A stretch of DNA of 64,000 nucleotides from NCBI GenBank assembly GCA_011322625.1, contig DRMH01000012.1, positions 32,387 through 96,386 on the forward strand, written 5' to 3'. A model generated the notes under the pieces. That model saw only the letters and a list, made by a program, of their open reading frames with translations. It was not told the origin of the DNA and made no database searches. This stretch comes from Thermosulfurimonas dismutans (GTDB lineage Bacteria > Desulfobacterota > Thermodesulfobacteria > Thermodesulfobacteriales > Thermodesulfobacteriaceae). The stretch's first letter is position 1. Each line of letters opens with the position of its first letter. Positions 51,948 through 54,134 of this stretch are shown one piece after another. Both the position numbers and the translations under genes were made by a program.

Positions 51948-52575
51948 CTTCCTCCTAAAAGGGATGTGTCCGAAAGCATATTGTTTTCTCGGGAATTCTT
52001 CAAGCCCGTGCCTTCTCTTTGGCCGGAGTCTTTTCCCTCCCGGGCTCGATTTAAAGTTTTATAGCCCGATCAGCCTGTTCCCCTTGTCAGAAGGTCAAAT
52101 TTTTGGGATAATTGGAAAAGGAATTGTTTTTTTGAGTTGGTAGGAGATGGATGCGCCCGGGGGAGCATTGTTTTCCTGTAATTGCTGCGTGACTCATCGT
52201 ATCATAAAAGAATATAATCTTTTCTCGCTCCCCGATCTATTTTCAAAGATTTTGCCAACTCCTCCCTATCCACTCCTGGTTTTTTTCATGCTTTCTCGGC
52301 CAAGAGAATCTTTTTGGCCTTATATCATCCGTCAGCTTTTTGTCAAATTAAATACAAATTGTTTTTTGAAAAGTATTCAAAAAATATGGATAAAATTAAT
52401 ATTTTACATTGAAACATAGAATTATAAAAATTAATGGCAAAATTCTGGAATTTAGGGCAATTGATTTATTGAAAAATAAGAGCTAAAAATTTCTTAATAT
52501 AAACCCTTAAATCGGGGCCTCTATCTAATTAAAAGTAATGTTAGAAAAAATAATAAAAAAACAGAGATTAAAAAG
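51948..52575. other. Gene-free flank between lysS and the cassette array
   Basis: 628 nt with no credible gene. The first about 190 nt have the host base composition; from about 52200 the DNA turns AT-rich like the cassettes. It contains a near-consensus leftward promoter (52319-52346) with an inverted repeat, several weak rightward -35/-10 pairs, and the GTTAGA core site at 52540. No integrase gene or clear relic was found on either strand. Confidence 0.7.
52319..52346 (-). promoter_or_regulatory. Orphan leftward promoter with inverted repeat
   Basis: On the minus strand TTGACA (52346-52341), a 16-nt spacer and TATAAG (52324-52319). The inverted repeat GGCCAA/TTGGCC (52298-52303 and 52314-52319) covers the expected start point. 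The nearest gene in this direction is lysS, about 365 nt on. Confidence 0.5.
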
Positions 52576-52935
52576 ATGACTCGTGAACAATTTTTAAAAA
52601 AGTTACAGGAAGAAATTCCATATATTAAAGCTCATGAAGAAGATGATTGGGATTGGTACAATGAGGGGATGGAATTTCTCGAAAAAGGAGAACTGGAAAA
52701 AGCGGAGAAGAAATTTAAAGAGTTAATATTATCACAACCAGAACATCATGATGGGTATGAAGGGCTCGCCAGAGTTTATATGATGAAAGGAAGATTAAAA
52801 GAAGCAATATTTTTAATTGAAGAAGCTATTAAATTAGCAGAACGATTTTTAGAAGATGGTAGTCTGGATATAGAAGTTTTAGAAGAGTTAAAGCAATTAC
52901 GAGAGGAGATAAAAGGAAGAATACAACCTATCTAA
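52576..52935 (+). CDS. Cassette 1: small TPR protein
   Basis: 119 residues, acidic, with two TPR-type repeats (YNEGMEFLEKGELEKAEKKF and GYEGLARVYMMKGRLKEAIF). No signal peptide. Its stop TAA lies inside the inverse core ATCTAAC of attC1, as in many cassettes. No good ribosome site. Function unknown; TPRs mediate protein contacts. Confidence 0.8.
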   Translation: MTREQFLKKLQEEIPYIKAHEEDDWDWYNEGMEFLEKGELEKAEKKFKELILSQPEHHDGYEGLARVYMMKGRLKEAIFLIEEAIKLAERFLEDGSLDIEVLEELKQLREEIKGRIQPI

Positions 52936-52991
52936 CAACTCTCTTCAGCGGACCCGGCATACTGCCGGGCCGCTGATTTTTAGCGTTAGAA
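52930..52991 (+). repeat. attC-like recombination site 1
   Basis: Inverse core ATCTAAC (52930-52936), then left arm TCAGCGG-A-CCCGGC, a five-base loop ATACT, right arm GCCGGG-CCGCTGA and core GTTAGAA (52985-52991). The A between the two halves of the left arm has no partner, giving the single extrahelical base expected of attC. Length 62 bp. Confidence 0.85.
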
Positions 52992-52995
52992 AAAC

Positions 52996-53253
52996 ATGCC
53001 TATAATAAGCAGATTTTTAGGAATTCTCATTGTTATGTATTATCGAGATCATCTACCTCCTCATTTTCACGCCAAATACGGTGAATACGAAATTATTGTG
53101 GACATTAACTCCGGTCTCGTGGAAGGGAAATTCCCTAAAAGGGCTTTACGGCTGGTTCTAGAATGGTATGAATTATATAAGGAAGAATTATTGAGAAATT
53201 GGGAAAAAATGCAAAAGGGAGAACCTCCCGACCCAATACCTCCTTTGGAGTAA
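52996..53253 (+). CDS. Cassette 2a: DUF4160 protein
   Basis: 85 residues. The diagnostic block is MYYRDHLPPHFHAKYGEYE (HxPPHFHA), followed by GKFPKRALRLVLEWYELYKEEL. DUF4160 proteins are regularly found next to DUF2442 proteins and are considered toxin-antitoxin-like. The ATG lies eleven bases after the core site with no ribosome site, so translation may depend on the upstream transcript. Confidence 0.85.
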   Translation: MPIISRFLGILIVMYYRDHLPPHFHAKYGEYEIIVDINSGLVEGKFPKRALRLVLEWYELYKEELLRNWEKMQKGEPPDPIPPLE

Positions 53254-53257
53254 AGAT

Positions 53258-53551
53258 ATGAAAGATATGTTTATAAAAATAAAAAAAGCAGAATATATTA
53301 GAGATTACAAAATTAAGATAACTTTTGATGATGGGAGCGAAGGAATTGTAGATTTATCTGAAAGTTTAGAGGGTAAAGTTTTTGAAAGTTTAAAAGATAA
53401 GAAAAATTTCTCAAAATTTAAAGTAGATGAAGAGTTAGGAACGATCGTCTGGGAAAATGGTGCAGATTTAGCTCCAGAATATCTTTATTTTTTAGCTTTT
53501 AAAGATCGTAAAGATTTGCAATCAAAATTTAAAGAGTGGAAATACATCTAA
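53258..53551 (+). CDS. Cassette 2b: DUF2442 protein
   Basis: 97 residues, with IKITFDDGSEGIVDLSE, the LGTIVWENGADLAPEYLY segment and a C-terminal basic helix. A GGAG site precedes the ATG. The partner DUF4160 gene ends 4 nt upstream, and the stop lies in the inverse core of attC2. Possible antitoxin or DNA-binding half of the pair. Confidence 0.85.
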   Translation: MKDMFIKIKKAEYIRDYKIKITFDDGSEGIVDLSESLEGKVFESLKDKKNFSKFKVDEELGTIVWENGADLAPEYLYFLAFKDRKDLQSKFKEWKYI

Positions 53552-53607
53552 CAAACCTCTTCAGTGGACCCGGCTTAACGCCGGGCCGCTGAGTTTGAGC
53601 GTTAGAA
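53546..53607 (+). repeat. attC-like recombination site 2
   Basis: Inverse core ATCTAAC (53546-53552), left arm TCAGTGG-A-CCCGGC, loop TTAAC, right arm GCCGGG-CCGCTGA, core GTTAGAA (53601-53607). Same 62-bp length and same unpaired A as site 1; one G.T pair in the arm. Confidence 0.85.
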
Positions 53608-53638
53608 AAAATAATAATTAATTCGAGGTGATGTAAAA

Positions 53639-53848
53639 ATGAAACTTAAAATTATTTTAGAACCAAGTGAAGAAGGGGGATATACTGTATATGTTCCCAG
53701 TTTGCCAGGATGTATCAGTGAGGGAGATACCAAAGAAGAAGCCCTTAAAAATATTAAAGAAGCCATAGAATTATATCTTGAACCGGTTGAAGATGATTTG
53801 ATACCTTTTGAACAAACGAAAATGGAAATAATCGAATTAACTTTATGA
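53639..53848 (+). CDS. hicB: Cassette 3a: HicB-type antitoxin (short)
   Basis: 69 residues: KIILEPSEEGGYTVYVPSLPGC, SEGDTKEEALKNIKEAIELYLE, the RNase H-like HicB domain. It lacks the C-terminal DNA-binding domain of long HicBs. GAGGTGAT precedes the ATG. It overlaps hicA by four bases (ATGA). Confidence 0.9.
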   Translation: MKLKIILEPSEEGGYTVYVPSLPGCISEGDTKEEALKNIKEAIELYLEPVEDDLIPFEQTKMEIIELTL

Positions 53849-54072
53849 GCAAAGTACCCAGTTTGAATTATGATAAAGTTATAAAGGCTCTTCAGAGAGA
53901 TGGATGGGTTGTGGTAAGGCAGAAAGGAAGTCATATTCGATTACATAAATACACAAAAGATAAGAAATTAAAATTGATAGTTCCCGCGCATAAACCTATT
54001 AAAAGATCAACGCTGGCTCATATATTGAAACAAGCTGGATTGACTATAGAAGAATTCTTGAAGCTTTTATAA
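53845..54072 (+). CDS. hicA: Cassette 3b: HicA-type mRNA interferase toxin
   Basis: 75 residues: a double-stranded RNA-binding-like fold with VIKALQRDGWVVVRQKGSH, where the His of the GSH motif is catalytic in the family, then LIVPAHKPIKRSTLAHILKQAGL. Downstream of its antitoxin, the less common order but frequent in cassettes. Confidence 0.9.
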   Translation: MSKVPSLNYDKVIKALQRDGWVVVRQKGSHIRLHKYTKDKKLKLIVPAHKPIKRSTLAHILKQAGLTIEEFLKLL

Positions 54073-54074
54073 TT

Positions 54075-54134
54075 ATCTAACAACTCGCTTCAGCGGACCG
54101 GCGATACGCCGGCCGCTGAGTTGGGACGTTAGAT
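54075..54134 (+). repeat. attC-like recombination site 3
   Basis: Inverse core ATCTAAC (54075-54081), left arm TCAGCGG-A-CCGGC, loop GATAC, right arm GCCGG-CCGCTGA, core GTTAGAT (54128-54134), a full GTTRRRY. 60 bp. The core overlaps the last codons and the TAA stop of cusA on the other strand. Confidence 0.85.

Follow-up and report, generated by a model that had tools for sequence, protein, structure and literature searches.

A three-cassette array between lysS and cusA

The window analysed, a 64-kb stretch of the genome of Thermosulfurimonas dismutans, carries between lysS and cusA an AT-rich insert made up of an integrase remnant, an attI region and three gene cassettes (Table 1). The middle cassette holds two short genes encoding a DUF4160 and a DUF2442 protein, and stands between a cassette for a TPR protein and a HicBA cassette. 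The cassettes are delimited by G^TT crossover points, those of cassette 2 being G52985^T52986 and G53601^T53602. The 2.1-kb array stretch has a G+C content of 34–36% against 59% overall, and nowhere else in the window does the value fall below 40% at the 600-bp scale.

Table 1. Features of the insert and its cassettes (positions are those of the window).
Feature	Position	Strand	Evidence
AT-rich insert between lysS and cusA: integrase remnant, attI, three cassettes	52006..54132		absent from congeners G004 and G005; 34–36% vs 59% G+C
Degraded integron integrase 5' end, with stops and frameshifts, remainder missing	52052..52300	-	alignment of region 52004-52549
attI / putative cassette promoter region, ending at crossover G52540^T52541	52340..52540	+	conserved attI end
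Cassette 1, 445 bp: 119-aa TPR protein (ORF 52576-52935)	52541..52985	+	TPR_2, 43.7 bits
attC1	52931..52990	+	pattern, folding, scanner
Cassette 2, 616 bp: DhiT/DhiA toxin-antitoxin	52986..53601	+	flanked by attC1 and attC2
DhiT-family toxin, 85 aa, DUF4160	52996..53253	+	PF13711, 79.9 bits (cut-off 23); NF048015 toxin_DhiT, 84.4 bits (cut-off 100)
DhiA-family antitoxin, 97 aa, DUF2442	53258..53551	+	PF10387, 62.3 bits (cut-off 23.9); NF048016 antoxin_DhiA, 38.6 bits (cut-off 200)
attC2	53547..53606	+	pattern, folding, scanner
Cassette 3, 527 bp: HicB (53639-53848) and HicA (53845-54072)	53602..54128	+	domain matches, attC pattern
attC3, adjoining the cusA stop codon	54076..54133	+	pattern, folding, lysS-cusA comparison

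Each of the three attC sites forms one bulged hairpin, as an attC should (-17 to -20 kcal/mol), with a single extrahelical base in the stem and TCTAAC/GTTAGA ends. On the + strand, the folding z scores range from -6.2 to -8.3, and none of 200 shuffles folded equally well. In the 1.91-Mb genome, the exact pattern TCTAACA-N34-64-CGTTAGA is matched only by these three sites, while the attC scanner returned zero sites on shuffled copies of the 64-kb window. Rfam gave no attC match here. Cassette 2 thus has R boxes (YYYAAC / GTTRRR) and a bulged hairpin on both sides, as an integron gene cassette should. The gene pair, both attC borders and the neighbouring HicBA cassette, as proposed in the initial annotation, are therefore correct to the base. 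At its right end (54129-54133) the array also supplies the stop codon of cusA, whose last residues read GRKI-stop here and GRK-stop in G004.

The DUF4160/DUF2442 pair and its relatives

DhiT and DhiA are the NCBIfam names for DUF4160 proteins of this type and their partners, which form a type II toxin-antitoxin pair, and both models match the window proteins, as they do those of Dickeya dadantii 3937 (PMC8198452). Since neither score reaches the NCBIfam equivalog cut-off (Table 1), the two proteins are to be taken as family relatives rather than as certified equivalogs of the Dickeya proteins; in particular, the antitoxin aligns only to positions 2-80 of the 160-position DhiA model, half of its length, unlike Dickeya DhiA. 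As in Dickeya, where the genes are a few bases apart or overlap, the toxin gene comes first and the antitoxin gene second, here at a distance of 4 bp. Neither protein was matched by PADLOC.

In Dickeya dadantii, growth is inhibited when DhiT is overproduced but not when DhiA is co-expressed, and both the antitoxin and the toxin-antitoxin complex repress their own promoter (PMC8198452). In Thermus thermophilus, no transformants were obtained with a plasmid that carried the DUF4160 gene and lacked its DUF2442 partner, and the module, named PEM, raised plasmid persistence (PMC12724237). In contrast, no stabilisation of a test plasmid in E. coli was seen with the Dickeya dhiTA operon, and thus addiction is not a uniform property of DhiTA. 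The toxin of the Thermus plasmid shares 55.8% identity with the window toxin over its length, and the PEM proteins are of similar size (87 and 92 aa). The description of the two window proteins as being of unassigned function is consequently out of date, since NCBIfam names their families and two papers, of 2021 on Dickeya and of 2025 on Thermus plasmids, report toxicity and neutralisation for relatives, which also support a toxin-antitoxin role more directly than the cassette context from which it had been proposed. Judged by sequence and by analogy, the pair is a known kind of toxin-antitoxin system, a sound but unsurprising example.

The setting differs from those of its relatives. The Dickeya operon is chromosomal, with its own repressed promoter, and the PEM module is plasmid-borne behind a rep gene, whereas the window pair is a cassette of a chromosomal integron with no room for a promoter. 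As part of a chromosomal array it resembles the cassettes of the sedentary chromosomal integrons of Vibrio (PMC11023631), which also hold toxin-antitoxin genes in attC-bounded cassettes, although the array of V. cholerae has 179 cassettes as against three, with a decayed integrase, here.

The AlphaFold2 model of the toxin (pLDDT 95.4) consists of five strands followed by two helices. Foldseek found no solved structure matching this fold at E <0.3 (best E 0.37), and a sequence search against solved structures gave nothing reliable. In a 57-sequence alignment, the motif H-x2-PHFH contains two invariant histidines, His19 and His25, and a third, His23, with a conservation of at least 90%; His23 and His25 lie on one strand of the model. 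The window toxin retains every residue that is invariant in this alignment. It may be guessed that the toxin is an enzyme acting through these three histidines, and it is conceivable, though somewhat improbable, that it attacks RNA or translation. The antitoxin model (94.2) matches the folds of 3K8R and of 2AUW (putative DNA-binding protein NE0471), the latter also being matched weakly by the antitoxin sequence. The 97-aa antitoxin has no HTH domain.

DUF2442 adjoins DUF4160 in all 80 of the best GTDB genome relatives (downstream in 79), in 32 of the 34 viral loci and in 26 of the 30 loci from the phylum, the remaining four of these being a divergent DUF4160 subtype of about 77–79 aa without an adjacent DUF2442 gene (L037, L051, L054 and L055, the last near attC-like sites). 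Natural fusions of both domains in one ORF occur on a viral contig (L152:4859-5599, with an HTH_3 domain at its end) and in the genome G098 (L047:1477-2016). The five DUF2442 ORFs that extend more than 70 residues past the domain (L139, L152, L157, L158 and L163) all lie on viral contigs, and scans of three of them (L152, L158 and L163) each confirmed an HTH domain. Furthermore, two loci (L114:3001-3252 and L128:3001-3252) each have one in-frame stop in the toxin frame, followed by a DUF2442 match, a possible case of toxin inactivation.

Expression signals and the state of the integron

Within the cassette, the toxin gene has a leader of 10 nt (52986-52995), and over positions 52432-53269 of the + strand a consensus scan, with other promoter types outside its reach, gave no sigma-70-like match; the number of promoter-like matches in the region is close to that expected by chance (11 against 7.0). 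The cassette thus showed no promoter ahead of its first gene. The proposed dependence of the pair on upstream transcription gains support from the leader and the scan, short of proof, and expression is likely promoterless within the cassette and not self-regulated. If so, the cassette differs from the toxin-antitoxin cassettes of Vibrio, which have been described with promoters of their own (PMC11023631).

Regarding translation, the Shine-Dalgarno score is 0 at the toxin start and -5.9 at the antitoxin start, where GGAG lies within the last codons of the toxin gene; in cassette 3 it is -7.2 for HicB and 0 for HicA. In a comparison of 100 loci from genomes and viruses, made with fixed antitoxin starts, the antitoxin had the stronger site at 55 loci and the weaker one at 27 (medians -5.9 vs -2.95, p = 0.00025), with a p value that ignores relatedness.

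To the left of the cassettes, region 52004-52549 aligns with the intI start and attI of relatives with intact integrases (scores of 291 for G030, 232 for G007, 178 for G008 and 167 for G003), the best of 20 shuffles reaching 49 for the G030 alignment. By itself, the tblastn match of the G003 IntI to 52236-52054 is weak (E 0.16). The attI end, ATCTAA...TAAAAG..ATGTTA(G/T)A, is common to the window, G003, G008 and G030, and the same alignment places attI next to the first cassette, as in an integron. An intact intI was not found in the assembled genome (about 97% of the total), searched piecewise. Two intI 3' remnants lie elsewhere in it (L012 and L013, at C45:479-697 and C140:7230-7446), both adjoining tRNA nucleotidyltransferase genes, where the congeneric G003 keeps an intact intI; of five congeners, only G003 and G004 have an intact integrase. 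In G004 and G005, lysS and cusA are direct neighbours, an empty site into which the window has 2,127 extra bases (blastn break at 52005/54133 in the window and 3049/3051 in L174).

The array is a decayed integron. Like a CALIN (cluster of attC sites lacking integrase), it has no intact integrase nearby; unlike one, it keeps attI and an intI remnant, and decayed integron is therefore the better term. An origin as a CALIN outside any integron was considered and dropped after the attI alignment. With most of the integrase gene lost, the cassettes are stranded, and since no intact integrase was found in the genome, the cassette is probably immobile now unless an integrase acts in trans. The view of the pair as a mobile cassette therefore holds for its past but probably not for its present.

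Origin of the cassette and its meaning for integron decay

DhiTA pairs with attC on at least one side are also present in a genome of the same genus (G002), in one of the same family (G016), in G166 and G078, in a Deltaproteobacteria MAG (L071) and in Thiorhodospira sibirica (L077), and a further pair lies in the array of G032. Identity to the window toxin is no more than 52% for the toxin of G002 and 49% for that of G032, and several DhiTA lineages have thus entered cassettes. Most other DhiTA loci showed no attC with a scanner of moderate sensitivity, which failed to pick up the right border at L071 and at L044. The initial annotation had held that its reading would fall if neither protein were toxic and the pair were mostly chromosomal and fixed in other genomes; this is half the case, as most pairs elsewhere lie outside recognisable cassettes, but the pair is also carried on plasmids and viral contigs.

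The same DhiTA cassette is present in the array of G016, at 83% nucleotide identity over 564 bp. The TPR cassette was found in two of the 30 family genomes searched, the source genome and G016, directly before DhiTA in both, with 87.6% amino acid identity between the proteins, and is absent from the other 28. By gene, nucleotide identity to G016 is 87.0% for TPR, 81.9% for DhiT and 85.1% for DhiA, as compared with 70% amino acid identity for lysS. The HicBA cassette, attC included, shares 92.2% nucleotide identity over 537 bp with a cassette of G030, a member of another family, whose lysS has 74% amino acid identity. Thus, cassettes are shared with other genera and families at 82–95% nucleotide identity while lysS stands at 70–74% in amino acids, and these values point to their arrival by horizontal transfer. 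In the sister DhiT cassette of G016 (L034, around 1722), ATA stands at the position of the start codon, with a stop just upstream; translation of this toxin may begin at an internal ATG, or the toxin may be switched off, perhaps a case of toxin activity lost without loss of the array.

The reading that we consider highly probable is that a DhiTA-type type II module was captured as an integron cassette, joined the TPR and HicBA cassettes in a small chromosomal integron, and is now stranded in its decayed remains between lysS and cusA. The cassette borders, attI, the integrase remnant, the empty site in congeners and the relatives in other arrays are its observed part. The functional part would run as follows. 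Transcription would reach the pair by way of the TPR cassette, coming either from the attI side or from outside; the short leader and the lack of a Shine-Dalgarno sequence would keep toxin translation poor, and the good site in the last codons of the toxin gene would provide antitoxin in excess, which would bind and block the toxin. Autorepression of the operon would be improbable with an antitoxin that lacks an HTH domain. If the array were lost, free toxin would be left behind, and deletion would thereby be disfavoured.

The three alternatives concern the activity of the pair, its nature and the origin of the array. The pair could be a decayed or silenced toxin-antitoxin relic of no present function, having no promoter, weak toxin translation and no integrase. 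The integrase known only as remnants, the toxin Shine-Dalgarno score of 0, the G016 sister cassette without a toxin start codon and the truncated copies of the neighbouring toxin-antitoxin genes in G020 all fit with this; nevertheless, both window reading frames are intact and the toxin retains all the residues that are invariant in the alignment, and a relic is judged unlikely, albeit worth keeping in mind. Far less credible is a role outside toxin-antitoxin systems altogether, as a two-subunit protein or stress regulator that travels as a cassette by chance. Although the toxin fold is unlike that of any solved toxin and single genes were without effect in E. coli in the Thermus study (PMC12724237), relatives show toxicity and neutralisation in Dickeya, E. 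coli and Thermus, and are frequently carried on plasmids and viruses.

A similarly low probability is given to the array being an attC cluster that never had an integrase and was inserted at a secondary site. Such an origin would agree with the failure to find an intact integrase in the genome and with the array stopping exactly at an attC end within the cusA stop codon, but the intI 5' remnant and attI at the left, in the canonical divergent layout, speak against it, and it is already disfavoured by the attI alignment. Capture of a DhiTA module followed by stranding in a decayed integron is retained as the most probable explanation. The history of the pair is clearer than a reading of the window alone could show, ordinary in kind and well supported.

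In a count by hand over ten arrays of the order, 16 of the 20 cassettes from genomes lacking integrase carried toxin-antitoxin genes, as did 10 of the 22 from genomes possessing one (two-sided Fisher test, p = 0.029), in a small sample with cassettes shared between arrays and a classification that was not blind; this excess is a lead only. One array, of ten cassettes, in a genome without integrase (L195, G016:C7:38000-46000), carries toxin-antitoxin genes in nine of them and sits in a sugar-nucleotide and glycosyltransferase gene cluster. We put forward, as a tentative and rather doubtful proposal, that toxin-antitoxin cassettes are the survivors of integron decay in this bacterial order, among them promoterless DhiTA modules whose toxin has a fold unmatched by solved structures and a mode of action that is possibly undescribed.

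These results link the DhiT toxin family, recently validated and little studied, to integrons in several lineages. Moreover, with its empty site, attI, integrase remnant and relatives of every cassette, the locus offers a compact case for asking whether toxin-antitoxin cassettes remain when an integron dies, and the toxin, whose confident model has no solved counterpart, is a fair target in the search for a new toxin mechanism.
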